Assembly: GCF_003363715.1 (NCBI RefSeq)
Contig: NZ_QREV01000041.1
Location: 1-46,247, forward strand
DNA: 46,247 bases
Direction: 5' to 3'
DNA from: Parabacteroides acidifaciens
GTDB taxonomy: Bacteria; Bacteroidota; Bacteroidia; Bacteroidales; Tannerellaceae
Under the pieces are notes generated by a model, which worked only from the letters and a program-made list of their open reading frames with translations, made no database searches and was not told the origin of the DNA. The first letter of the stretch is position 1. The number at the start of each line of letters is the position of its first letter. This document shows, in pieces, positions 6,935 through 31,935 of this stretch. Made by a program: the position numbers and the translations under genes.

Positions 6935-6973
6935 CCCTTAGATGCTTATTGACGGTGCAAAGCAAATAAATAA

Positions 6974-7005
6974 TTGCGGTAAATGAAAGAAATTTTGTAT
7001 CTTTG
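6974..7005 (+). promoter_or_regulatory. Promoter of the GT5 / DUF4270 pair
   Basis: ATTG (6974-6977), about 20 bases, then TATCTTTG (6998-7005). The box lies inside the longer frame that begins at 6983, which argues for the ATG at 7034 as the true start of the next gene. Minus-strand sequence here (TTGCTTTGC) may serve panC. Confidence 0.7.
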
Positions 7006-7033
7006 TAGCGTCTTTATAAAACTAGTTTACAGA

Positions 7034-7852
7034 ATGGATGCAAAAAAAATCTTGTTTATAGCTCAAGAAATAACACCCTACCTTCCCGAATCCGAGATTG
7101 CAACGATATGCAGAAACCTGCCGCAAGGCATACAGGAGCGCGGTCGTGAAATCAGGACTTTCATGCCTAAATTCGGCAGCATCAACGAGCGCCGTAACCA
7201 ATTGCACGAAGTGATTCGCCTTTCGGGTATGAATCTTATCATTGATGATACCGACCACCCGTTGATTATAAAGGTAGCGTCCATTCAGGCAGCCCGCATG
7301 CAGGTATACTTCATTGACAATGAAGATTTCTTCCAAAGAAAACATACTATAAGCGATGATGATGGAAACGAATACGAGGATAACGACGACCGCTCGATCT
7401 TCTATGTTCGTGGTGTATTGGAAACAGTGAAAAAGCTCCGTTGGATACCCGACGTGATTCACTGTCATGGATGGATGTCAGCGCTAACAGCCCTGTACAT
7501 CAAACGTATGTATGCCGACGATCCTTGCCTCAAAAATGCAAAGATTGTCTATTCTATTTATAACGATGACTTCAAAACACCGTTCAGAAAGGAATTTGCA
7601 AGCAAATTAAAGATGGATGGAGCCAAAGACAGCGACCTGAAAGGTATCAAGGCCGATACCAGCTTCACCGGACTGACAAAACTTGCCATTGATTTCGCTG
7701 ACGGCGTGATACAGGGAAGTGAGACAATCAACCAGGATGTGTTGGATTATATCGCGACCAAAAAGAACACGCCGTTCCTGCCTTACCAGTCTCCGGATGT
7801 TTATATGGATAAATTCAACGAATTCTACGATGTCGTATTAGGCACAAAATAA
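7034..7852 (+). CDS. Glycogen/starch synthase-like protein, N-terminal GT5 domain only
   Basis: 272 residues matching only the N-terminal Rossmann domain of GT5 glycogen synthases: KKILFIAQEITPYLPES in the position of the ADP-glucose-binding region, then DVIHCHGWMSALTALYIK and an acidic insert around DDDGNEYEDNDD. Full GlgA proteins are about 480 residues; the C-terminal nucleotide-sugar domain is absent, with no frameshifted remainder downstream. The next gene begins ten bases later, so this is a stable short form, not a recent break. Catalysis alone is doubtful; a regulatory or partner role is possible. Start chosen by the promoter at 6998. Confidence 0.85.
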   Translation: MDAKKILFIAQEITPYLPESEIATICRNLPQGIQERGREIRTFMPKFGSINERRNQLHEVIRLSGMNLIIDDTDHPLIIKVASIQAARMQVYFIDNEDFFQRKHTISDDDGNEYEDNDDRSIFYVRGVLETVKKLRWIPDVIHCHGWMSALTALYIKRMYADDPCLKNAKIVYSIYNDDFKTPFRKEFASKLKMDGAKDSDLKGIKADTSFTGLTKLAIDFADGVIQGSETINQDVLDYIATKKNTPFLPYQSPDVYMDKFNEFYDVVLGTK

Positions 7853-7862
7853 ATTTAGAGAA

Positions 7863-9242
7863 ATGAAAATCAAGCTTTTTATACTTGGCCTGAGTCTCGG
7901 GATCTCGATCTTGAGCGGGTGTAATGATGAGTTGACGCAGGTAGGAACCGGTATCCAACCGGAGAATGACAGACCGCTGGTGCATGCGGACACATTCTAC
8001 ATGAAAGCAAGCACAATGCTTACGGATTCTGTTTATGCACGAACGACTTATGGTTCGTTGGGAGAAATCTACGATCCTTTATACGGCAACCTGAAATCCG
8101 ATTTCATGTGCCAGTTCTACAGTCCGGAGAACTTCCGGTTCAGAGAAACTCCATATAATGGTAAAATAGACTCTGTTGAATTCAAAATATATTACAGCAG
8201 AAGCTGGACGGGTGATTCTCTTACGCCCATGCGTGTCCAACTCTATGAAGTTACGACACCGTTGACAAGGGATTTCTACACAAATATCGATCCCGGAAAG
8301 TATTGCAATATGCAGAAATCATTGGGCATGCAGACTTATACGGCACGTGATCTGGCCGTTTCCGACTCTCTTTGGAATGATAAAAACACCACATCCGGTG
8401 AATATACTTACTCGCCAAATGTGACCATCCGTATGCCACAGGAGCTCGGACAACGTTTCTATGAAGCGACAATCAACACACCGGAAGTCTTTAAGAATCA
8501 GAACACATTCAATGAATTCTTCCCGGGTATTTATGTAACAAACACGTACGGGACAGGAAATATCCTGAACATTGACGGTACCCAAATGAACATATTTTAT
8601 AAATATGTAGTGAAAGGTTCTGCCGGCCAGGATTCAATCATACAAACAGCAGAAGTATTTAGCGCCACATCTGAAGTAATCCAGTTGAACCGCTTTAAGA
8701 ATACCGACATGAGCCATCTCTTGGAACCGAACGACAGCATCGCTTATTTGAAGAGTCCGGCAGGTGTTTACACTCAACTGACCATTCCTGCACAGGATAT
8801 CGCGCCTATCATTAAAGGCCGTATCGTCAGCAACTTCGCGCTTTCATTGAAAGCGCTTCCGCAGGAAGACTGGAAATATGCATTTGAAGCTCCTGCCAAC
8901 CTGTTGATTTTGCCAAAGGATTCGGTTGATAGTTTCTTTAAAAGCAATAGTGTCGAAAATAGTATAACCTCTTTTAGAGCTCCATATACGGCTTCTACCC
9001 GAACTTATACATTTGGGAATATAGCAAAATTGCTCAAAGCTCACATCGAGAACTCTCCGGACGAGGACCTTGTTCTCAGTGTTATTCCGGTAGAACGCAG
9101 AGTAGGAAAGACTACAAACTATTACGGACAAACAAGTGATTATACCGTCGCTATCGAAAACTACTTGAAACCGTCCGGTGTTAAGTTGCGTATCGACAAA
9201 GATGCAATGGAAGTACGTGTTGTAACAATTGAATACAGATAA
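7863..9242 (+). CDS. DUF4270-family lipoprotein
   Basis: 459 residues with a lipoprotein signal (hydrophobic stretch ending ILSGC, Cys about 20). The mature part carries the DUF4270 opening: a 'VGTGIQP' segment, then repeated beta-rich sequence with DSVYARTTYGSLGEIYDPLYG. Families of this type are surface or outer-membrane lipoproteins of Bacteroidetes with no assigned biochemical role. Ten bases after the GT5 gene and ended by a strong terminator, so the two form an operon. Confidence 0.85.
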   Translation: MKIKLFILGLSLGISILSGCNDELTQVGTGIQPENDRPLVHADTFYMKASTMLTDSVYARTTYGSLGEIYDPLYGNLKSDFMCQFYSPENFRFRETPYNGKIDSVEFKIYYSRSWTGDSLTPMRVQLYEVTTPLTRDFYTNIDPGKYCNMQKSLGMQTYTARDLAVSDSLWNDKNTTSGEYTYSPNVTIRMPQELGQRFYEATINTPEVFKNQNTFNEFFPGIYVTNTYGTGNILNIDGTQMNIFYKYVVKGSAGQDSIIQTAEVFSATSEVIQLNRFKNTDMSHLLEPNDSIAYLKSPAGVYTQLTIPAQDIAPIIKGRIVSNFALSLKALPQEDWKYAFEAPANLLILPKDSVDSFFKSNSVENSITSFRAPYTASTRTYTFGNIAKLLKAHIENSPDEDLVLSVIPVERRVGKTTNYYGQTSDYTVAIENYLKPSGVKLRIDKDAMEVRVVTIEYR

Positions 9243-9264
9243 ATCGACCTTACATTACAGACAT

Positions 9265-9303
9265 AAAAAAACCGGGGTTTCCAGAAGGAAGCCCCGGTTT
9301 TTA
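9265..9303. terminator. Bidirectional terminator
   Basis: AAAACCGGGGTTTCC and its exact complement GGAAGCCCCGGTTTT are separated by a short loop, flanked by A and T runs on either side. It can stop the DUF4270 transcript (plus) and the converging glycogen operon (minus). Confidence 0.92.
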
Positions 9304-9320
9304 CTTTTACCACTTTACCT

Positions 9321-10625
9321 CTATTCAGCAGAAGCAGCTTTCTTTGCTACTTTTTTCTTGCATTTATCAAGTTCTTTCTGCAATTCCTCTATCTCTTCTC
9401 CCTGATTCTTGATTGTTGTCAACAGAGAATTCAGTTCTTCGTTTTCTATTGTTTCCGGGAATTCGGCATTCACACGAACGATAAAGTCCGACAAGACGTT
9501 CATATAGTTATTGAAAGCGTCATACGGATTGTCGTACGGACTGAATCCGGCACCGATATGCTTTGTACTCATGTAATAGAAATGGTCGCTGCTCTGCAGA
9601 TAATACCAATCCTGGCGGATACGGCGGGTCTGCGACAGGCGTACGCGTTCGCCTATTTCATTCAGCTTGCGGAATGCCTCTTGCTGCAAAACATTACCCA
9701 ACCAGGAACTGCAGTCTCTTTCTTCATCCACCCATGACATCGGGTAAGGAACAGAAATACAATCAACCGGTTTCATCAAAGCCAACACTTCCGAAGGAGT
9801 AGAGAAACCTATTCCCTTTTCAGCGGCAAAGCGAGGCAGTGCCTTGAAGAAGTCGAAGATTCCGGTTTCTGCCGGGTGCAGAGAACCTAACACCTCATAA
9901 TTCATAAACAGATTGATAATCTGTTCGGAATCCGGAGTTGCAGCAATCCAGGATATATATTTATCAGCCGTCAGCGGATATTCATTCCAACTATAATTAC
10001 TGAAACGGTCGGACAGGTCTTCACTGAAACGGTCGTTCTTCAACAGCAATTTCAATTTCGGTTCCGTGCAGGAAGAATAGACATAGTTCGGACTCTTCCA
10101 TCCTAAGATGTGTTTAGCCCCTTCAGTCAACATTCCTTTATAACCCATTGCATAAACCATCTCCGAAATCTCGTCGGAATAGATCAGTTCCGTATTGCGG
10201 AACACCTTCGGTTTAACACCGAACAAACTCTTGATCTTATCTTCCTGTTTCTGTACCTGGTGTTTGAATTCAGCCGGGTCACCCAGAGAAGACAAAGAGT
10301 GAGCGTATGTTTCTGACAGGAATTCCACATTGCCGGTTGCAGCCAGTTCTTTAAAGCTGTCGATTACCTCCGGTGTATAGATTTCCATCTGTTCCAATGC
10401 CATTCCCGAAATAGAGAAAGCCACTTTAAACTTGCCGCCACTCGTTTTAATCATCTCCAGAATAGCCTTATTAGCCGGCAAATAGCAGCGTTCGGCTATA
10501 CGGCGGATAATTTCTTCATTCTGGAAATCATCATAATAATAATGATCGTTGCCGATGTCGAAGAAACGGTATCTTTTAAGACGGAACGGCTGATGTATCT
10601 GAAAATAAAAGCAGATCGTTTTCAT
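9321..10625 (-). CDS. GH57 family alpha-amylase / glucanotransferase
   Basis: 434 residues. The start MKTICFYFQIHQPFRLKRY is the GH57 signature (the His-Gln near residue 11), and the nucleophile region is VFRNTELIYSDE, with the catalytic Glu about 146. The C-terminus is a Lys/Glu-rich coiled-coil tail (about 395-434). No signal peptide, so cytoplasmic and most likely acting on glycogen or maltodextrin. It is the last gene of a three-gene cluster with a GT4 enzyme and a debranching enzyme. Exact specificity (hydrolysis, transfer or branching) is not readable. Confidence 0.9.
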   Translation of the reverse strand: MKTICFYFQIHQPFRLKRYRFFDIGNDHYYYDDFQNEEIIRRIAERCYLPANKAILEMIKTSGGKFKVAFSISGMALEQMEIYTPEVIDSFKELAATGNVEFLSETYAHSLSSLGDPAEFKHQVQKQEDKIKSLFGVKPKVFRNTELIYSDEISEMVYAMGYKGMLTEGAKHILGWKSPNYVYSSCTEPKLKLLLKNDRFSEDLSDRFSNYSWNEYPLTADKYISWIAATPDSEQIINLFMNYEVLGSLHPAETGIFDFFKALPRFAAEKGIGFSTPSEVLALMKPVDCISVPYPMSWVDEERDCSSWLGNVLQQEAFRKLNEIGERVRLSQTRRIRQDWYYLQSSDHFYYMSTKHIGAGFSPYDNPYDAFNNYMNVLSDFIVRVNAEFPETIENEELNSLLTTIKNQGEEIEELQKELDKCKKKVAKKAASAE

Positions 10626-10655
10626 AATATCTTATTTTTTTATTTTTTCTTGTCG

Positions 10656-11918
10656 TTACTTATTCAATACTTGATCATAGATGCGGCGAACCTTTTGTCC
10701 GGCATATTCCCATTTAATATTGTCCACCTCTTTCTTACCTTCCTCTTGCAGGAACTTATGCATGGCGGGATAGGTAATAATGGCGTACATGGCATCTGCC
10801 AACGCCTCGATATCCCAATAATCTACCTTCACTGCATAATCAAGAATCTCGGCACAACCGGATTGCTTGGAAATGATGGAAGGCACACCGCACTGCATCG
10901 CTTCGAGCGGAGAAATACCAAACGGTTCGGAAACAGAAGGCATCACATATACATCACTGGCTTTCAACACCTCGTACACCTGTTTACCTTTCATAAACCC
11001 GGTGAAGTGGAAACGGTCCGAAATATTACGCATCGCCGCCAGGTTGATCATCTGATCCATCATGTCGCCGCTACCGGCCATCACGAAACGGGCATGCGGG
11101 GCTTTCGCCAACACCTTGGCAGCTGCTTCCACAAAGTATTCAGGTCCTTTCTGCATTGTAATACGTCCCAAGAAGGTGATCACTTTATCTTTCACACCCT
11201 TTTTATCCTGGATGGACAAAATCTCCTGACTTAGCGGTTCAACGGCATTATGCACAGTCGTCACCTTTGACGGGTCCTGATGATATTTTTCGATCACCGT
11301 CTGCCGGGTCAGGTTACTTACCGTAATAATATGGTCCGCATTATCCATACCGTTCTTTTCGATGGCATACACATCCGGGTTCACATTCCCGCGGCTGCGG
11401 TCATAGTCGGTTGCATGCACATGGATCACGAGAGGCTTACCACTCACATTCTTGGCATGAATACCGGCCGGATAAGTCAGCCAGTCGTGCGCATGAATAA
11501 TGTCATACTGTTCCGTACGGGCCACAACGCCGGCGACGATCGAATAGTTGTTGATCTCTTCCAGCAAGTTATCAGGATAGCGCCCGGAAAACTCCATGCA
11601 TCCCAAGTCATTTACATGCCTGTAACTGAAGTCTGCATAAATATGGTCACGAAGATCATAATATTTCTGCGGATCCATGTATTTCGACAGTCGTTCTCTG
11701 ACATAATCCATCTGGACATCACGCCATACGATCGGGACGTTGCACATCCCTATTATCTTCAGGAAACTCTGGTCTTCATCGCCCCAGGGCTTCGGTATAC
11801 AAAAAGTTATATCCATATCCGGCTGCATAGCCATTCCACGTGTAAGACCAAAACTGGCCGTACCCAGACCTCCCAGGATATGAGGAGGGAATTCCCATCC
11901 AAACATTAATGCTTTCAT
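10656..11918 (-). CDS. GT4-type glycosyltransferase (glycogen synthase-like)
   Basis: 420 residues, cytoplasmic. The N-terminal motif WEFPPHILGGLGTASFGLTRGM matches the sugar-nucleotide loop of glycogen-synthase-like GT4 enzymes. The C-terminal domain has FLGRITMQKGPEYFVEAA and the E-x7-E motif in SEPFGISPLEAMQCGVP. Neighbours (GH57 and debranching enzyme) point to alpha-glucan synthesis, so this may be the working glycogen synthase while the GT5 protein at 7034 is only half-length; that is an inference. Confidence 0.88.
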   Translation of the reverse strand: MKALMFGWEFPPHILGGLGTASFGLTRGMAMQPDMDITFCIPKPWGDEDQSFLKIIGMCNVPIVWRDVQMDYVRERLSKYMDPQKYYDLRDHIYADFSYRHVNDLGCMEFSGRYPDNLLEEINNYSIVAGVVARTEQYDIIHAHDWLTYPAGIHAKNVSGKPLVIHVHATDYDRSRGNVNPDVYAIEKNGMDNADHIITVSNLTRQTVIEKYHQDPSKVTTVHNAVEPLSQEILSIQDKKGVKDKVITFLGRITMQKGPEYFVEAAAKVLAKAPHARFVMAGSGDMMDQMINLAAMRNISDRFHFTGFMKGKQVYEVLKASDVYVMPSVSEPFGISPLEAMQCGVPSIISKQSGCAEILDYAVKVDYWDIEALADAMYAIITYPAMHKFLQEEGKKEVDNIKWEYAGQKVRRIYDQVLNK

Positions 11919-22735: not shown

Positions 22736-23146
22736 TTACTTTACATAATCCTTTATTATCTCATACGTGTTTTTCACTTTATCCACTTCTTTCTTTAAAG
22801 TTTCTGGTGTTACGCCCTCCTTGTTGCTACCAGATAGCAACAGATGTAGAAGTGCAACACGATTCAGATCCAGTTGAGGTGTTTTATCTTTGTCATCCCA
22901 CAATTTATCCACTTTTTCCTCTCGCTCCTTAGACAGCTTTCTTGCTTCATTTTTTTCAGAAATAATCTTTTCCCATTCAACCTTTCTTTCCCATTCATCC
23001 TTTTTCATTTTCTCTTCATGAGAAAGCTTCAACTCTACTATTTTATATCCATACTTATACTTTAACACGAAGATATAATCTATTAGAAAAATAACTACCA
23101 TTATAGCAAATATTCCCACAATTGATAATAACCATACATCCATCAT
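22736..23146 (-). CDS. Small membrane protein with coiled coil, coupled to corA
   Basis: 136 residues of unknown family. Residues about 4-27 (VWLLSIVGIFAIMVVIFLID) form one membrane helix with a short N-terminal end. Residues about 40-90 are rich in Lys and Glu (KMKKDEWERKVEWEKIIS) and should form a long cytoplasmic helix or coiled coil, ending in a small helical tail (LDLNRVALLHLLLSGSNKEG). The ATG overlaps the corA stop by four bases (ATGA type), so translation is coupled. Position between the channel and the Cmr genes suggests a partner or regulator of the CorA effector; nothing in the sequence proves it. Confidence 0.8.
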   Translation of the reverse strand: MMDVWLLSIVGIFAIMVVIFLIDYIFVLKYKYGYKIVELKLSHEEKMKKDEWERKVEWEKIISEKNEARKLSKEREEKVDKLWDDKDKTPQLDLNRVALLHLLLSGSNKEGVTPETLKKEVDKVKNTYEIIKDYVK

Positions 23147-24663
23147 TTTACCCTCCTATTCTTTATATTATTATATAATAAAGCTGATACACCCACAATT
23201 ACCAATGTTTGCCACAACATATTCACTCCAAACGGATTCATACCAAATATTCCTGTAATCACTGTCGCCGGCAGAAATATAGCAGCCAACCAATTCAGCC
23301 ATTCACCATTTTCATTTCTCTTCTGGTCTATCAACAATGTAATATATTGATGTAATTCACCTATTTCCTCATCCAACTCTTTTATCTTCTCACTGGATGC
23401 GAATTGCTGCATCAACATATTATACATTTCGATACCTTGATCTTGCACCGTCACATGCTGGAAATAGATCTGATTTATAAAACGTATATATTCCTGATAA
23501 AGAGAGCCTATACGTTCCGCTAAACGCCGATCCGTATGTCGAGAAAGACAACTCACTTCAGTCACTTCCCCCGAAAACCTCAACATAGAAGCACGTTGGA
23601 TAATAATAAGTTCAAACATACGAGAATAAATAGTACGCATATGCATCGCTAAGATATTAGAAGCAAACCAACTTCTATTTGTCAGAGCTACCATTGAATA
23701 ACGGGATATCCCATAAAGAGTACCTTGTTTCTGCCATCGATAATAAGTGCTATTCCCTAATAGCTTTTTTTTCATCTCATTATTCTGGCAAGTATCTTCA
23801 TCTCCATCATCCACAAATACATACTTGTACCAGAAATCCCCCATTACAAACTCTCCCTCCTTCATGTTTTCTGTCATATCTTCCACCTGCTTGGCCAAGT
23901 CATCATTCCCATACCAACAATTTACCAGCATACGGTCGTCTATCACAGGAGTTACCTTCATTTCCGGAGACAAATCTTTGATCAAACTATCTATAAATAC
24001 AGCAGGTTTCCAGACATCTGACAAACCGAATTCCAGAACTTGTCCAATCGTATGAACTTTATAATTAAATCCATCCATATATTTAGAAGGATCACCGTGA
24101 AGACCTTTTATCGTTATTGCTTTAGACAACATAGTGCGTCCATCTGCAGAAAACTCACCACTGTGAGGTGGCATTATACGTCGTCCGAACTGGTTAATAT
24201 TCCGGATATCCGATTCATCCTTTTGGCTTTCCTCATTGTTTCTCAAAAAAAATGAAAGAATTCCAACACCTGTAGCATATAAGTTCAAATTAATAGCATC
24301 GACTTTCAGCCTGTATTCCTTATCACGTACCGCAATCCAATATTCGACATTCCCATTTTTAGGTTCTCGACGTTCGAAATGATAAATTATTGGATTTTCC
24401 GCACCCTTTATATCATACAATACTGGATGCACAAAGTCAAAATAATATTGTAACTCACCAAAAAACTCTTCTCTCTCTTTGGTATCTTCTCCAACAGCAG
24501 GTATATACTTTTCATTAGGATCATATTGTATTCTTTCCCACATTGCATATTCATTTACAGGAATATGCTTCAGATCTATTTGCTCAGAAAAAGTTTTTTT
24601 ATCTTCATCCGGCAATTCCCATTTAAAAGGGAAATAAAAAATATGATAACTATAAGTTTCCAT
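23143..24663 (-). CDS. CorA-family membrane protein, probable SAM-AMP effector
   Basis: 506 residues. A large soluble N-terminal region (about 1-440) precedes a long helix with QYITLLIDQKRNENG and two C-terminal membrane helices: WLNWLAAIFLPATVITGIFG and LWQTLVIVGVSALLYNN. Between them is GMNPFGVN, the CorA selectivity-loop GMN. It is larger than housekeeping CorA (about 320). In B. fragilis the equivalent protein binds SAM-AMP and kills or arrests the infected cell, probably through membrane leakage; the same role here is inferred from the neighbours. It overlaps the 3' end of the DHH gene by 14 bases. Confidence 0.88.
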   Translation of the reverse strand: METYSYHIFYFPFKWELPDEDKKTFSEQIDLKHIPVNEYAMWERIQYDPNEKYIPAVGEDTKEREEFFGELQYYFDFVHPVLYDIKGAENPIIYHFERREPKNGNVEYWIAVRDKEYRLKVDAINLNLYATGVGILSFFLRNNEESQKDESDIRNINQFGRRIMPPHSGEFSADGRTMLSKAITIKGLHGDPSKYMDGFNYKVHTIGQVLEFGLSDVWKPAVFIDSLIKDLSPEMKVTPVIDDRMLVNCWYGNDDLAKQVEDMTENMKEGEFVMGDFWYKYVFVDDGDEDTCQNNEMKKKLLGNSTYYRWQKQGTLYGISRYSMVALTNRSWFASNILAMHMRTIYSRMFELIIIQRASMLRFSGEVTEVSCLSRHTDRRLAERIGSLYQEYIRFINQIYFQHVTVQDQGIEMYNMLMQQFASSEKIKELDEEIGELHQYITLLIDQKRNENGEWLNWLAAIFLPATVITGIFGMNPFGVNMLWQTLVIVGVSALLYNNIKNRRVK

Positions 24664-25432
24664 TTGTTATTATTTTTATATGTTCCACCATTTCTTGTAT
24701 TTTGTCAGAAGAATAAGCTCCATACTGTATTCCCACATATCCATTCTCTCCTCCACCACAAAAAAGTTTACCGGACAAGAACTCTTCTTCAAAATAGTCT
24801 CGTATCTGGGTCGCTCCTTTACCATAATACATCCATTCACTATCTGTATAAACCAATAAACACCGATAGGGGAACAAACGGTCACAAATTGGAGAAAAGC
24901 GGGAACTGAAAGCATGAACTATCAGCAAATCTCCCACCTTTTCACTATTTTGAGCTATTGCCTTTTCTGCCGACAATTCATCTTCAGCTGTTACCCCTTG
25001 AGCTTTACGATCTGCACGACGGATAACTGCGATCTCTTCTTTTGTCGCATCCAACTCCAACATACCGGGAATATAGGCTTTGTCATTAGCAGCAACCAAT
25101 TGCTGATACCGATCCATCGGCAAGTGAAGAAATGACATCACCTGTTCCAAAGCACTGGGTAAACAGGTCAGTTCGTTATGATGATCAATTCTCCTATAGC
25201 CAGAGGGAACAGGAATATCTTCCCGCAGTTCTATTCCAAAAACGCTATAGCCTTGGTTTAAAGCATCATCCAATTCTTTCTGGTAGTTACTCACTCGGGC
25301 ATTATCCCAACGCAACTGATGATCAACATAAGCTATTGCTTGTTCATCAAGTACTTGTCGAATGGTTAGCATTTCCAAATCATAACCACCCAACAAAAAA
25401 AGATATTTATTTAGAGAACCATCTATCTGCAT
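24650..25432 (-). CDS. DHH-family phosphodiesterase, NrN type (messenger-degrading)
   Basis: 260 residues. Metal-binding motifs of the DHH superfamily are GGYDLEM (about 15-21), VDHQLRWDNA, the eponymous RIDHHNE (81-87) and AANDKAY. The C-terminal substrate motif CGGGENGYVGIQYG (about 225-238) matches the DHHA1 glycine motif of NrnA-like enzymes. In the B. fragilis system the NrN protein hydrolyses SAM-AMP and so switches the alarm off. It sits directly before corA, with overlapping frames, the expected pairing of an effector with its off-switch. Confidence 0.85.
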   Translation of the reverse strand: MQIDGSLNKYLFLLGGYDLEMLTIRQVLDEQAIAYVDHQLRWDNARVSNYQKELDDALNQGYSVFGIELREDIPVPSGYRRIDHHNELTCLPSALEQVMSFLHLPMDRYQQLVAANDKAYIPGMLELDATKEEIAVIRRADRKAQGVTAEDELSAEKAIAQNSEKVGDLLIVHAFSSRFSPICDRLFPYRCLLVYTDSEWMYYGKGATQIRDYFEEEFLSGKLFCGGGENGYVGIQYGAYSSDKIQEMVEHIKIITNGNL

Positions 25433-26109: not shown

Positions 26110-26340
26110 AATAGATCATCATTAAGTGTTACAAGTTATTCATGCCCAATATTAGTAATTTATTTTGAATCCAATCCTTTTTTCATTCACTTTTTTCCTG
26201 ATCTGCTCACAATCGTGTTCTAATTCAAAGAAATTCTATATAAAACCAACCAAACGCATCAAAATAAAGGGGTTCCCATATATGAAGCCTCCCCACACAT
26301 ACATACACACGCAGTCTTAATCTTTAACTTTCGCAAATAA
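26110..26340 (-). promoter_or_regulatory. Regulatory gap upstream of the cas6-cmr operon
   Basis: The 231-base gap holds, reading toward cas6: the element ATTTGCGAAA (26329-26338), just after the cas2 stop; AAAGATTAAGAC (26314-26325), one mismatch from the last 12 bases of the crRNA-sense repeat; an imperfect GGGG...CCCC hairpin followed by TTTATTTT (about 26259-26296), perhaps the cas2 terminator; and a weak -7 box TTTCTTTG near 26239. No gene is seen. Confidence 0.6.
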
Positions 26341-26634
26341 TCAAACCACCATAACTTTCTCATATTTCAATCTTCTATCCGGTTGATATACTATTTTCGT
26401 ATAACAATTAACACAAATCGGATAATACACAATCCGATCTTCCCGATTATCTATCTCCGCACTTATACGTTCTTGCAATTTTACGAATTGCACATCCGTA
26501 AGCATACATTCAAAAACACTATAATTGATACGGACACCTATTTTTTCCAACATCTTGACCACATGGCTTCTTCTCCTGTCATCAGCCACATCATATGCTA
26601 CCACTATAAAATTTTTCTTTGCTCTCATCACCAT
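26341..26634 (-). CDS. cas2: CRISPR adaptation protein Cas2
   Basis: 97 residues, the normal Cas2 size. The ferredoxin-like fold begins FIVVAYDVADDRRRSHVVKML, including the conserved Asp after the first strand, then NYSVFECMLTD. It dimerises and bridges Cas1 dimers in the integrase. Its start overlaps the RT-Cas1 stop; a second ATG at 26628 (TGATG coupling) is equally possible. No further adaptation gene such as cas4 is present. Confidence 0.95.
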   Translation of the reverse strand: MVMRAKKNFIVVAYDVADDRRRSHVVKMLEKIGVRINYSVFECMLTDVQFVKLQERISAEIDNREDRIVYYPICVNCYTKIVYQPDRRLKYEKVMVV

Positions 26635-28898
26635 TTTGCTATATAAGGTTTGTACTTCTTCCCCTCATCAATCCAAGCTGCCATCTCACAAGCTTGCCTA
26701 CGTATGATCTGCTCCATCGTAATCTCTTCTCCCCGATATTTCTCATACCGGTTCAGACGTTCCAATATACTTTTAATTAACAACTTCTTTGTTTCCTCTT
26801 CCAATAACCCTTTTTCAACTCTCAAAGACGGACCTTTTTGTATTAACGAAATAACCACTCTGTCTACCACCTGCGAACGGAACATTTCGACTACATCATA
26901 CACAAACGTTGGTTTGCCTGATTGCCGCACATGTATAATACTGTCAAACGGATTGAGCTTTGCACCAAGCAATGCCTGCCAAACTCGCGTATACAATATT
27001 GCATACCCATAATTGAGCATGCAGTTTACCAGATCCGTAGCCCCTTTCCGTTCACGCTTGACAAAACCGACCTTATCATCAGACAACAGTTCACGAATAT
27101 ATCCCCAATACTTGATTGCCCCCTGCGACTCTTGCCCCACCAATTGTATCAAGAACTCTTCGTCCATCTTGTCCTGTCCTCGTACAAACGTTTTGAATTG
27201 AACATTAAAAACCGACAAATCCTCATACTTTTCACTAAGCGTATCATAGCAATGCTTATGGTATTTATGATAATATTTTACTAAATAGAATTGATTTTTC
27301 AGTTTTGCCTCTATAATACAGGTTGCCAAAGACAAACGTTTTTCCTTTCCACATTGTGCCTGCTTGTTCCATAAAGTATTTTCGATATATTTATTCGACA
27401 ATATAGATCCGGTATGCCAACCTGAAGAGTTGAAAAAATCGATGGTAATCTTATTGGCAAGGCAATAATCAATCAGATTAGAAGACAATGTCACTCCTTT
27501 GCTACTAATCGTTATATGTGAAAGAGCGCCCAATGGCTTCTGGTGGATCACTTTTCCTTGCCGCTTCACTGTTACACCTTTACCTGAAAGACCGACAAAA
27601 CAACCGAACGTATTAATCAGCAACTCACTGCCTTCTCCTTCGCGTTTCCGGTATTCGGCTTTCCGCTGTTCTATAATCTTCTTATTCTGCTCTTTCGCTC
27701 TTTTTTCTTTCTCCTTCCCTTTTTGGAGATCATACAGTTCCACATAATCCTGAAGCATTCTTTTCTTATACAATTGATATTCATTCGAAAGATAATCAAC
27801 TTCAGACATAATCCTTATCAGAACAGCTCGATTCGCTATCTGCTGAAACGAAGCTATTACAATCTGTTTCATACGATCATAGAGCAAATCATCCAAAGCA
27901 TGTAATACCGACTGAGGTAACAGCGCTCCGTAATAGTTCCGCACCCCATTCCATGCACGAAGACTTACAGATGTAAACCCTTTATTTGTTATAGACAAAT
28001 TAGCTATCCGTTCTTTCAAGTCAGCCTCTTTTTTCTCCGATAAGCTCAATCCTCCTTTGGATATCGTTATGCCCAAAAACTCACAGCCTTTACGAAGATC
28101 TGCCACTATCGGAGTATTCAAAGTCAATCCCAAATGCGTTTGTAAATAGACAGATAATTGATTCAATAGGACTTTCGCCTGTTCATGCGTTTCGCACATC
28201 AAGCAAAAATCATCGGCATAACGAACATAAGAACGACATAAAGTTTGTACGAATTTATCGAAAGGATGCAGATAAAAATTAGCCAACAAAGGAGAAAGGA
28301 TAGCGCCTTGCGGCACTCCCTCCAGACTATCGTTCCACTTTAAATGCTTGTTGACAACTCCCATCTGCACAGAAAGCATTATCAACCTCACAATCTCCTC
28401 GTCCGGAATCAGTGCATGAAGACGGGCCGCCAACAAATGATGATTGATCGTGTCAAAATAATTATCAATATCAAGTTTCAACACCCATTTATTCTTCTTT
28501 TTCTGGCATTCGTTCAATGCACGCCTAACAGCTTTCGTATGTCCTTTATTGGGACGATAGCCATAACTGGCATCAACAAAAATATTTTCAAAAAGAGGTT
28601 CTACCAAAGTTTTGATAGCATATTGCACAATTTTGTCTTTAACAGACAACAAACCCAGCTTCCTCACTTCATTTTTCTTCTTAGGAATTTCAATGCTAAG
28701 ATACGGTTCAGGAGACCATATCCCAGCTCTCAACTCACCCGACAACTCTGAAATATATGTCTGGACATTATCTTCAAAACAAGCTAACGTAACCCCATCT
28801 ATTCCCCCGGAAGCATTTTTGCTTTTAACAGCCTTCCACGCCTCAAACAAAAACGCTTCCGTACACAATGTTGAATAACATGACTTCTGTGTTTCCAT
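26628..28898 (-). CDS. Reverse transcriptase-Cas1 fusion
   Basis: 756 residues. The RT half (about 1-330) resembles group II intron RTs: KKKNEVRKLGLLSVKDKIVQ, the first catalytic Asp in LKLDIDNYFDTI (about 143), VPQGAILSPLLANFYL and YVRYADDFCLM (YADD about 227-230), then the thumb RAWNGVRNYYGALL. A Lys/Glu-rich linker (about 390-425) leads to Cas1 (about 430-756) with catalytic Glu in VGQESQGAIKYWG, His in SIIHVRQSGKP and acidic YDVVEMFR. No Cas6 domain is fused. The ATG at 28898 is preferred; a TTG lies at 28919. It allows spacers to be captured from RNA via cDNA, as shown for other RT-Cas1 proteins. Confidence 0.96.
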   Translation of the reverse strand: METQKSCYSTLCTEAFLFEAWKAVKSKNASGGIDGVTLACFEDNVQTYISELSGELRAGIWSPEPYLSIEIPKKKNEVRKLGLLSVKDKIVQYAIKTLVEPLFENIFVDASYGYRPNKGHTKAVRRALNECQKKKNKWVLKLDIDNYFDTINHHLLAARLHALIPDEEIVRLIMLSVQMGVVNKHLKWNDSLEGVPQGAILSPLLANFYLHPFDKFVQTLCRSYVRYADDFCLMCETHEQAKVLLNQLSVYLQTHLGLTLNTPIVADLRKGCEFLGITISKGGLSLSEKKEADLKERIANLSITNKGFTSVSLRAWNGVRNYYGALLPQSVLHALDDLLYDRMKQIVIASFQQIANRAVLIRIMSEVDYLSNEYQLYKKRMLQDYVELYDLQKGKEKEKRAKEQNKKIIEQRKAEYRKREGEGSELLINTFGCFVGLSGKGVTVKRQGKVIHQKPLGALSHITISSKGVTLSSNLIDYCLANKITIDFFNSSGWHTGSILSNKYIENTLWNKQAQCGKEKRLSLATCIIEAKLKNQFYLVKYYHKYHKHCYDTLSEKYEDLSVFNVQFKTFVRGQDKMDEEFLIQLVGQESQGAIKYWGYIRELLSDDKVGFVKRERKGATDLVNCMLNYGYAILYTRVWQALLGAKLNPFDSIIHVRQSGKPTFVYDVVEMFRSQVVDRVVISLIQKGPSLRVEKGLLEEETKKLLIKSILERLNRYEKYRGEEITMEQIIRRQACEMAAWIDEGKKYKPYIAKW

Positions 28899-28923
28899 AT
28901 TCGTATTTTTCGTTAACAATCGT

Positions 28924-30922
28924 TTTATTATCCTTATTCTAATGGAATACTCACTGACTGGTTAAAACAGCCAACCAACATAAATTAAAAATTTTGTCTT
29001 AATCCTTATTCTAATGGAATACTCCCTGACTTTCAGAAAAGGGATGGTTCTTTACACAGCTTCGTCTGTCTTAATCCTTATTCTAATGGAATACTCCCTG
29101 ACATTCCGGGGATGAAAAGGCCGAGATGGTGGATGTTGTCTTAATCCTTATTCTAATGGAATACTCCCTGACTGCTCTTCAGAATTTGACACACCTGAGT
29201 TTATCAGTGTCTTAATCCTTATTCTAATGGAATACTCCCTGACTAAAATGGAAGAAAAAGAACTTGTTAGCTTAATTGGTCTTAATCCTTATTCTAATGG
29301 AATACTCCCTGACCGTTGTTGTTAATGATTTTTGCGGTATATGCCGTGTCTTAATCCTTATTCTAATGGAATACTCCCTGACAAACAACTTTCAATGGCG
29401 CTACTTTCTCCGTCAATGGTCTTAATCCTTATTCTAATGGAATACTCCCTGACTTTGGCAGTTTATTTGACCGATAACGGAAAATTCGTCTTAATCCTTA
29501 TTCTAATGGAATACTCCCTGACTTCCGTGAACTCACCTTTTGCAGGATTAGCTCTTGTCTTAATCCTTATTCTAATGGAATACTCCCTGACAAGAGGAGG
29601 TTCTTATTCAAGATTTGGGGGATGACGTCTTAATCCTTATTCTAATGGAATACTCCCTGACTTGGATTATAAGGCAGGTTCAACGTTCACACTTGCTTGT
29701 CTTAATCCTTATTCTAATGGAATACTCCCTGACAAGCAAGGTTAACATGCCTAAGCTTGAGAGAATTTGTCTTAATCCTTATTCTAATGGAATACTCCCT
29801 GACACCGCATATTATGACGGCAGGTTGTTACAATTTGTCTTAATCCTTATTCTAATGGAATACTCCCTGACATCGTCAACGGCGATAATTGTGCCTACCG
29901 CAAAGAGAAGTCTTAATCCTTATTCTAATGGAATACTCCCTGACCCACGGAACTTATGGTATTAAACTTAATGAGTATGTGTCTTAATCCTTATTCTAAT
30001 GGAATACTCCCTGACTAAAAATATACAGTAATGAGAAATTTAACATCAGGTCTTAATCCTTATTCTAATGGAATACTCCCTGACCTGACATTGTGTGCTC
30101 GGTCGGTCCCGATAAAACCGTCTTAATCCTTATTCTAATGGAATACTCCCTGACATTTTTGCTATGAGTAAGTTAGGAAAAAAGCAAGTCTTAATCCTTA
30201 TTCTAATGGAATACTCCCTGACTCTGCTCGGTTAAGAACATTAATTATTTATTATGTCTTAATCCTTATTCTAATGGAATACTCCCTGACGGAATTATGT
30301 GCTATATAAGCAAATATGTTCTGGTCTTAATCCTTATTCTAATGGAATACTCCCTGACAAAATAGCGTGTATGTACGATAAACAACAATTATGTCTTAAT
30401 CCTTATTCTAATGGAATACTCCCTGACAATAGGAGAACATAGTCGTATAAGAAGACTTGGAATGTCTTAATCCTTATTCTAATGGAATACTCCCTGACTC
30501 AATATCTGACCATTCAGGGAAAAAACAAAGAAAGTCTTAATCCTTATTCTAATGGAATACTCCCTGACTTTGTGAAAACAATGGATATGTGCATCAAGTA
30601 CGCGTCTTAATCCTTATTCTAATGGAATACTCCCTGACTCTTTCCAGGGCGCTCCAACATCTGGAATTGTATCAGTCTTAATCCTTATTCTAATGGAATA
30701 CTCCCTGACTTCTCTTTCTCCTTTCCTTTTATTGGGGATTGAAAGCCGTCTTAATCCTTATTCTAATGGAATACTCCCTGACGATTGATTATAAAGTATT
30801 GGAAGCGTACATATTGTCTTAATCCTTATTCTAATGGAATACTCCCTGACTTGAATAGTGAATTATAGATATTAGAAGATGGTAGCCGTCTTAATCCTTA
30901 TTCTAATGGAATACTCCCTGAC
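28924..30922 (-). CRISPR. CRISPR array: 29 repeats of 35 bases, 28 spacers
   Basis: The plus-strand repeat begins GTCTTAATCC and ends ATACTCCCTGAC; 28 copies look identical. Spacers are 33-38 bases and all different. The leftmost copy (28924-28958), next to RT-cas1, has about six changes, mostly at the tag end: a decayed trailer repeat. So the leader is on the right and the array is transcribed leftward, like the cas genes. In that sense the repeat ends ATTAAGAC, close to the common Cas6 tag ATTGAAAC. Repeats start every 68-73 bases, the newest at 30888-30922. Confidence 0.98.
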
Positions 30923-31016
30923 ATTCTATCAGAGAGCACTTTAGACTTCTTTATCTTGAACTTCTTCTTGCTACTTCGAACTTTAAATCAGGGAGTTAAT
31001 CCATTTATAACTATTT

Positions 31017-31053
31017 TTTCGCAAATGTACCCAATTGAATCCGAGATTTCAAA
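31017..31053 (-). promoter_or_regulatory. Array leader promoter P1 with overlapping operator-like site
   Basis: On the minus strand TTTG (31050-31053), exactly 20 bases, then TACATTTG (31022-31029). The start site is expected about 95 bases before the first repeat. The element ATTTGCGAAA (31017-31026) covers the end of the -7 box and the start site, the classic place for a repressor. Confidence 0.8.
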
Positions 31054-31229
31054 CAAAACAAGGTTCAATTCATGCTCATTTATCTATTTATCAAACATTT
31101 ACAATTTCGCAAATCTAAAAACATACTTGTTTAATTTGGAGATTTGCGAAAAACGCCTAAAAATACATTTCATAAGCATCTGATTATTAAAGCAAAACGT
31201 CAAAGAACATAAATGCCTTCACACTGCAT

Positions 31230-31265
31230 TTTCGCAAATGTAACAACTAAAATGCTGAAAACAAA
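31230..31265 (-). promoter_or_regulatory. Array leader promoter P2 with overlapping operator-like site
   Basis: TTTG (31262-31265), exactly 19 bases, then TACATTTG (31235-31242) on the minus strand, again overlapped by ATTTGCGAAA (31230-31239). A weaker third copy (ATTG at 31381-31384, TTGATTTG at 31353-31360) lies further upstream. Confidence 0.7.
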
Positions 31266-31455
31266 GATTTGCGAAACTTTTCACACAAGTTCCAAAGTCC
31301 ATTTTACAATATTCACCTATTAATCAACCATATATTAAAAATAGAATTTTCGCAAATCAAAAATCTTTATTCAATTATTACAATAACCCCCATTTTCGTA
31401 ATTTTTCTATTTCATCCGAAATATTGATCCATTTTGGATTGACTTTTTTCACGGA

Positions 31456-31935
31456 TTTACCCCTTCCAGCTGACAACAGCCGGAAAGGGGTGCCGAGCCC
31501 ATTCCAAAAAGCGTGCAATTTGATTCTCGAAAACCGGAAACACCGCCAAAGTGATAAACCTTAACTCCCGGAGAATCGAATATTTGAAAATAAAACGGAC
31601 GGCGTCCCAAATATCGCAAGGAAATTTAGGGGCTTTTTTGCCCTGAAGACGGTCCTCTTTCCAATTACGACCGTCCAAATCGCCATTACGACCGTGCTAA
31701 TCTTCGCGAGGTGCCGAGTGCACTACACATTAGCACGGTCGCAATGGCAAAGAGGACGGTCGTAATTGATGGAAACGCTCAAAAAAGGCGAAAAAGCCCC
31801 TTTTTGAGGTCAAAAAAGTGGATTAACATTTGTTTAGTTTCAGTTCTCTTTTTAGCCGGAAAAATACGTTTTATACAATAACCTCCTGGTAATACCCCCT
31901 CCAAAAGCGTGCCGGGAAAATCCGGAAGGGACGTC
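31456..31935. repeat. Nested inverted-repeat region between leader and deaminase gene
   Basis: Several complementary pairs share a centre near 31715: 31628-31642 with 31787-31801 (14 of 15), 31663-31676 with 31754-31767 (14 of 14), and 31682-31701 with 31729-31748 (19 of 20, loop of 27). A separate hairpin with CCCCTTCC arms lies at 31458-31490. A short direct repeat (CCAAAAGCGTGC-like) occurs near 31503 and 31903. The 73-codon frame at 31457-31678 has no recognisable product. It may be a MITE-like element or a structured RNA. Confidence 0.6.

Follow-up and report, generated by a model that had tools for sequence, protein, structure and literature searches.

The window, by which is meant the whole 46,247-nucleotide stretch of Parabacteroides acidifaciens DNA analysed here, carries a CRISPR array read leftward from its leader. 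To the left of the array lie the genes for an RT-Cas1 fusion, Cas2 and Cas6b, followed by those for a DHH protein and a CorA-like protein and by the Cmr genes of a type III-B system. The leader contains six copies of one ten-base word; a copy is termed an F site when it reads ATTTGCGAAA toward the array and an R site when it reads away from it. The features are as follows.

28930..30922, minus strand: CRISPR array, read leftward from the leader.
30923..31357, minus strand: leader with the six-site layout.
26628..28919, minus strand: RT-Cas1 fusion (Pfam RVT_1 and Cas_Cas1), the putative reader of the sites.
26341..26634, minus strand: Cas2 (Pfam).
31017..31026, minus strand: site F1, ATTTGCGAAA toward the array, 94 bp to the first repeat, overlapping the predicted array promoter.
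31022..31029, minus strand: predicted −7 box of the array promoter, TACATTTG, which overlaps F1 (sequence and consensus).
31050..31053, minus strand: candidate −33 element with the sequence TTTG, lying 20 nt upstream of that −7 box (sequence and consensus).
31105..31114, minus strand: site F2, 182 bp to the first repeat.
31142..31151, plus strand: site R2, inverted partner of F2 (start-to-start 37 bp), 219 bp to the first repeat.
31230..31239, minus strand: site F3, 307 bp to the first repeat, inside a TAnnTTTG box at 31235-31242 with TTTG at 31262-31265.
31267..31276, plus strand: site R3, inverted partner of F3 (37 bp), 344 bp to the first repeat.
31348..31357, minus strand: site F4, 425 bp to the first repeat.
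26329..26338, minus strand: seventh ten-mer, isolated, upstream of cas6 and outside the platform count.

The III-B operon pairs the CorA-like protein with a DHH-family protein (23143-25432; PADLOC DHH_CorA), a gene pair found in SAM-AMP signalling type III systems. Just past the leader, at 31648-31768, lies a near-perfect inverted repeat with 40-nt arms (88% complementary) and a 27-nt gap; it contains repeated ACGACCGT words and is possibly a mobile-element relic or a terminator-like structure.

The exact ten-mer TTTCGCAAAT was located at 26329(+), 31017(+), 31105(+), 31142(−), 31230(+), 31267(−) and 31348(+), giving seven copies in the window. The original prediction, of six exact leader copies in both orientations spaced 88-37-88-37-81, two inverted pairs with 27-bp gaps at a 125-bp period, and a seventh copy upstream of cas6 with none further, was thereby borne out. 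Allowing one mismatch added three scattered sites, and 100 dinucleotide shuffles of the window held a mean of 0.37 copies with a maximum of 3. The prediction had named abundance of the word in unrelated intergenic regions as the finding that would count against it; the word was found 24 times in the whole genome (5.10 Mb) and its reversed control 29 times, so the ten-mer is not a general intergenic word. Outside the window there are 17 copies, of which four (L005, L008, L009 and L012) resemble, by eye, single −7 boxes before a gene; 11 more lie within an ORF of at least 80 aa, and L022 and L023 were placed by eye in neither class. The exact inverted-pair pattern occurred genome-wide as the two leader pairs only. 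A chance origin of the copies was set aside on the strength of the window shuffles, the genome counts and the leader scores given below.

The search for RT-Cas1 relatives covered 123 genomes of the family, 393 of the order and 395 of the phylum, together with a scan of named genomes, and among the matches listed the closer relatives carried the same ten-mer in their leaders at similar distances. A scan for the inverted pair matched 12 of 393 genomes in the order set, seven of which had a CRISPR array next to the pair (five genomes matched the reversed control); 9 of 131 in the family of G506, six beside arrays (control, five); and 9 of 121 in the window's own family, five beside arrays (control, four). 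In the phylum set, where 9 of 390 genomes matched, no array neighbour was found except in the window and perhaps G638, and the pair search of a viral collection returned 67 stretches, one of them beside arrays (L253). The layout was present, whole or in part, in 25 arrays, the window's included and near copies among them (L321/L321b, L322/L323 and L325/L325b), from at least seven host families (f1, f20, f60, f61, f86, f109 and f110, plus named MAGs); L253, with one pair, was mapped in addition. With degenerate sites counted, all six sites were present in 7 of the 25 arrays and three to five in the rest, and F1 stood 92-94 bp from the first repeat in 14. The systems bearing the layout included III-B, Csm-type III (G207, and by ORF starts only G970 and G090) and VI-B, the last with Cas13b both in G141, where RT-Cas1 is present, and in G447, where it is absent. 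Arrays beside other Cas1 genes, some of them in the same genomes, were examined and were without the layout. That the layout is real and conserved is, in our view, practically certain.

Several single loci deserve mention. In L170, from a single-contig genome without RT-Cas1 (G411), the entire site set lies some 84 bp farther from the array than elsewhere. In L063 (G070; 6973-10991), RT-Cas1 is interrupted by some 1.7 kb of inserted DNA with a 353-aa ORF that is integrase-like by its start only, and the leader sites are kept despite the split. Contigs titled Nitrospira and Nitrospiraceae (L086 and L091, among the matches listed) carry the layout, and misbinning is possible there. The viral-collection stretch L253 (1449-3022), possibly cyanobacterial at a guess, combines GTTGCAAC-type repeats with the pattern TTTCGCAAAT-N26-ATTTGCGAA, which occurs twice close to its arrays. 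In L280 (1-487; G638:C74), one TTCGCAAA...TTTGCGAA pair, which may be chance, stands about 60 nt away from an array; the Cas1 beside this array has a frame of 331 aa, which leaves no room for a fused RT. On another viral-collection contig (L269, 6028-6117), where no array was found, ten-mers are arranged R-F-R, 37 and 43 bp apart, either by chance or as a viral copy of the leader word. Two VI-B loci with Cas13b (L069, 4767-10299, and L171, 4933-10599) each have a neighbour of 438 to 520 aa with a weak CorA-like match.

Spacing was compared between site classes bounded by analyst-chosen ranges, in a set from which L323, L321b and L325b had been dropped and to which L085 (without its F4) and L170 had been added. 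The distance within the inverted pairs was nearly constant, at 36-37 bp for F2-R2 (14 of 14) and 36-38 bp for F3-R3 (13 of 13). The other spacings fell in clusters some 10-13 bp apart: 87-88 (n = 4) or 97-99 (n = 13) for F1-F2; 75-79 (n = 10) or 87-89 (n = 7), plus 53 and 97, for R2-F3; and 118-121 (n = 15) or 131-134 (n = 3) for F3-F4. Steps of 10-11 bp point to helical phasing, and the phasing is less clean outside the 75-79/87-89 steps, with an F3-F4 step of 12-13 bp, a looser F1-repeat distance and a best period that is not sharp. Random sets drawn within the observed range matched the observed phasing in 0 of 5000 cases for F1-F2 and likewise for R2-F3, in 0.1% for F3-F4 and in 3.6% for F1-repeat, figures that overstate independence since the rows are related. 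With that relatedness in mind, distances are kept in helical-turn steps, as in a phased adaptation leader motif.

The geometry was also scored without reference to any word, as pairwise matches among five ten-mers placed at the F1, F2, R2, F3 and R3 positions, on both strands of 94 loci. Scores of at least 76 were obtained for 16 loci, all from the list of 27 RT-Cas1 loci; two of the 16 (L075 and L086) show only an N-terminal part of RT-Cas1 in the stretch. The 67 loci outside that list, mostly other reverse transcriptases and including three broken or cut-off RT-Cas1 relatives (L064, L065 and L084), peaked at 73; shuffled leaders averaged 49.7-56.6 with a maximum of 69, and the leaders of six arrays beside other Cas1 types gave z values of −1.0 to 1.6. 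Of the 11 RT-Cas1 loci under the threshold, L070, L079, L091 and L154 show sites by word, and for the remaining seven (L061, L071, L073, L077, L078, L081 and L083) the stretch covered contains no array. The gap choices included 63-64 bp, added after L153 had been inspected, so the scan was not blind to that locus. In a second scan, the leaders of G447 (L158 and L171), G231 (L185) and G914 (L329) scored below 75 despite sites by word, and that of G207 scored 75.

At four RT-Cas1 arrays (L085, L153, L154 and L066) the element was present with other words. Their k-mer counts were compared with those of their own shuffles, which were Markov-sampled and crude; L085, L153 and L066 were not above them and are supported by the geometry score, and L154, whose counts were equal to or under the 99th percentile, failed by geometry (z −0.7), the element there being recognised from the word alone. 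In Campylobacter concisus the word ATTTGCGAAC was found at 93, 191, 228, 305 and 342 bp, with one more near 400. Further words were TTTTCGAACT in a Campylobacter MAG (L082), ATTTTCGAAA in L066 (G081), AATGAGAAAA in L153 (G726), ATCTGAGAAA in L152 (G519), and CGTGAGAAAA in a Chlorobiota MAG (L080), where sites were recognised in the order F4, R3, F3, R2, F2 and F1 was not clear. Two Arcobacter plasmid loci, fetched after the hypothesis had been formed, carry GCGAAC sites at 78, 174, 287 and 382 bp and at 80, 176, 289 and 385 bp; as F1 to F4 these give spacings of 96 (F1-F2), 113 (F2-F3) and 95-96 (F3-F4), matching C. concisus. The five-site score missed both loci because their R sites are absent or weak. 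No layout was found at Nostoc, Microcystis, Pseudanabaena and Rhodothermus loci with an RT or a long Cas1, where 95-239 bp lie between cas2 and the array. The platform belongs to one clade and not to every CRISPR-linked RT.

A tree of the Cas1 domain was built from 41 of 49 rows (two were not found, and six, including the site-bearing L070 and L076, were too short). All 22 site-bearing rows fell in one group of 26 (support only 81/74), the other four members of which have no leader sequence in the data, and 14 rows without sites lay outside it. Within the tree, the GAGAA words form one clade (95/86), and the GCGAA and TCGAA words do not form clades. Two genomes of one host genus (G081 and G112; g15) carry different words, as do L082 and L085, both titled Campylobacter among the matches listed. 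As judged from these sequences, then, the word varies with the lineage of RT-Cas1 and not with that of the host. Since two genomes of one genus differ in their word, the word follows the CRISPR locus, and because it does so a reader encoded at the locus is probable. The effectors differ between these systems, so RT-Cas1 and Cas2 are the parts seen in common, and that they are this reader, acting in adaptation, is about an even bet. Among 17 whole genomes with site-bearing leaders, six (G411, G447, G207, G914, G066 and G090) are without an intact RT-Cas1; G411 is a single contig, G066 is 86% complete and G090 keeps an N-terminal remnant. These six may be recent losses, assembly gaps or a sign of another reader.

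The relation of the sites to promoters was assessed against the Bacteroidota −33/−7 consensus, which we take to be TTTG followed about 19-21 nt downstream by TAnnTTTG. Several copies had been said to overlap −7 boxes or variants of them. Read toward the array, the exact TAnnTTTG is present at 31017, 31105 and 31230 and the remaining copies are variants, and a −33 partner, TTTG 20 or 19 nt upstream, accompanies the copies at 31017 and 31230 only, that is, F1 and F3. Of 22 leaders, 14 had the −7 TA at F1, 10 had a properly spaced TTG upstream, and 7 had both. Both elements were also present in 4 of 21 F3 sites and in none of the F2 (0/16), R2 (0/18), R3 (0/12) or F4 (0/18) sites, and the promoter pattern was thus not found across the site classes as a function of every copy. 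The F1 sequence is TATACATTTGCG in C. concisus and in one of the Arcobacter loci, and to our reading it resembles a −10 box. Since F1 overlaps the predicted array promoter, a factor bound there should obstruct RNA polymerase, and transcription is likely to be affected under either of the two leading models considered below.

The original prediction further held that the copies serve a dedicated regulator of the array and the effector operon. A dedicated leader factor fits the data well, since the sites are leader-specific, keep their position and orientation across families and are stepped by near helical turns. Control of the effector operon does not: no companion sites were found near the copy at 26329-26338, and across 20 related cas loci, some with partial operons, 3 of 68 ten-mers lay more than 560 nt from an array. 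A conserved site at the effector operon, as expected of an operator for a regulator of both, was not found in these 20 loci.

The favoured interpretation of these data is that the six sites form a docking platform for a locus-encoded, sequence-specific DNA-binding factor, most likely the RT-Cas1-Cas2 integrase, to which we assign a probability of roughly one half. The factor would bind each ten-mer, at F1, F2/R2, F3/R3 and F4, with two inverted pairs at 37 bp and the sites near helical register. Some 430 bp of leader would in this way be folded or coated, giving a complex whose distance from the leader-repeat junction is set and which would mark that junction for spacer insertion. Binding at F1 would be expected to lower or time array transcription too, since F1 overlaps the predicted promoter's −7 box. 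Against docking by the integrase count the six genomes without intact RT-Cas1, the Nostoc, Microcystis, Pseudanabaena and Rhodothermus loci without the layout, and the position of F1 on promoter-like sequence, which also fits transcription control. There is also the finding, in the available portions of two studies of RT-Cas1 from other lineages, that purified complexes integrate with 20-163 bp of leader (PMC8102632, PMC11014452).

It could instead be that a dedicated regulator, possibly encoded elsewhere, acts on the F1 −7 box and loops to the other sites, repressing or tuning the array promoter. This is a real possibility, if on balance a doubtful one: F1 has promoter elements in a good part of the leaders and F3 is the only other class with both, phased operators suit looping, and the sites persist in the six genomes lacking an intact RT-Cas1, but the word goes with the RT-Cas1 lineage rather than with the host, F1 stands 92-94 bp from the first repeat in 14 of 25 arrays, a distance that transcription by itself would not have to preserve, and no regulator gene was found in the window's cas operon with Pfam or PADLOC. 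We consider docking of the integrase no less likely than transcription control alone, because distances to the first repeat are on the whole maintained and the word follows RT-Cas1. Nor did the scans of window proteins with Pfam and PADLOC reveal an HTH protein, and no CARF-wHTH gene, as in Csa3-type control, was matched among 17 window proteins with Pfam, eight of them also with PADLOC.

A host architectural protein of the HU/IHF kind could bend the leader for integration through the sites, as IHF does in types I-E and I-F, and periodic spacing would suit bending; the different words in two genomes of one genus and the lack of enrichment of the ten-mer elsewhere in the window's genome make this unlikely. 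More improbable still is that the copies are Bacteroidota promoters in tandem with −7 boxes in common. A match to TTTG-N18-21-TAnnTTTG does exist at F1 and at some of the F3 sites, but the TA is absent from F4 (0/18) and present in 1 of 12 R3 sites, the sites run in two orientations, GCGAAA is kept downstream of the box, and the layout extends to Campylobacter and Arcobacter. Each pair is an inverted repeat and might for that reason be read as an RNA or DNA hairpin, yet in 26 pairs with 26 arm positions off consensus there was no case (0/26) of the same change in both arms, F1 and F4 are kept although unpaired, and the predicted promoter lies downstream of the pairs, so that hairpins are scarcely credible.

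The docking reading has a wider form, which is tentative and which we would not yet favour: that one RT-Cas1-Cas2 clade reads its leader through a phased six-site platform of 430 bp, common to III-B, III-A and VI-B, with a word that co-evolves with the enzyme and with the array promoter covered, such that transcription and insertion are coupled. If true, a single integrase could serve RNA-targeting arrays of several types. Those integrases capable of recording RNA that have been studied were tested on short leaders, according to the portions available of those reports (PMC8102632, PMC11014452). A conserved platform with one word per lineage offers a handle for finding and orienting such arrays, and in III-B, III-A and VI-B leaders it flags arrays that possibly share machinery.

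In type I-E and I-F leaders, an IHF site and an upstream motif lie in phase at set distances from the first repeat and help the integrase to find the junction. The present sites are like these in their set, phased distances, and unlike them in comprising six copies of one word with two inverted pairs over about 430 bp, in a word that changes with the RT-Cas1 lineage, and in that no IHF word was seen. In Sulfolobus type I-A, a leader-distal DNA site (−143 to −94) of the archaeal wHTH regulator Csa3a is tied, in the part of the paper available, to array transcription and Cas1 activity (PMC9456107); no such gene was present among the scanned window proteins. Arrays of F. columnare type VI-B gain spacers in trans from II-C, according to the accessible part of that study (PMC8092290). 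There is thus a precedent for shared machinery, and VI-B arrays could have a reader different from RT-Cas1. Among the titles listed by literature searches none concerned a leader organised in this way, an outcome that does not prove absence. The type III-B arrays of Bacteroides fragilis share both their type and RT-Cas1 with the window locus, and a highly conserved region upstream of their repeats has been noted; in the available text of that paper, CRISPRleader gave no definitive leader and the word 'motif' does not occur (PMC5704556). Finally, in the part available of the work of Toro and Martinez-Abarca, which concerns RTs and mentions the leader once, RT-CRISPR clade 2 comprises RT-Cas1 fusions of Bacteroidetes and Delta/Epsilonproteobacteria, in line with the hosts in which the layout was found here (PMC5541045).
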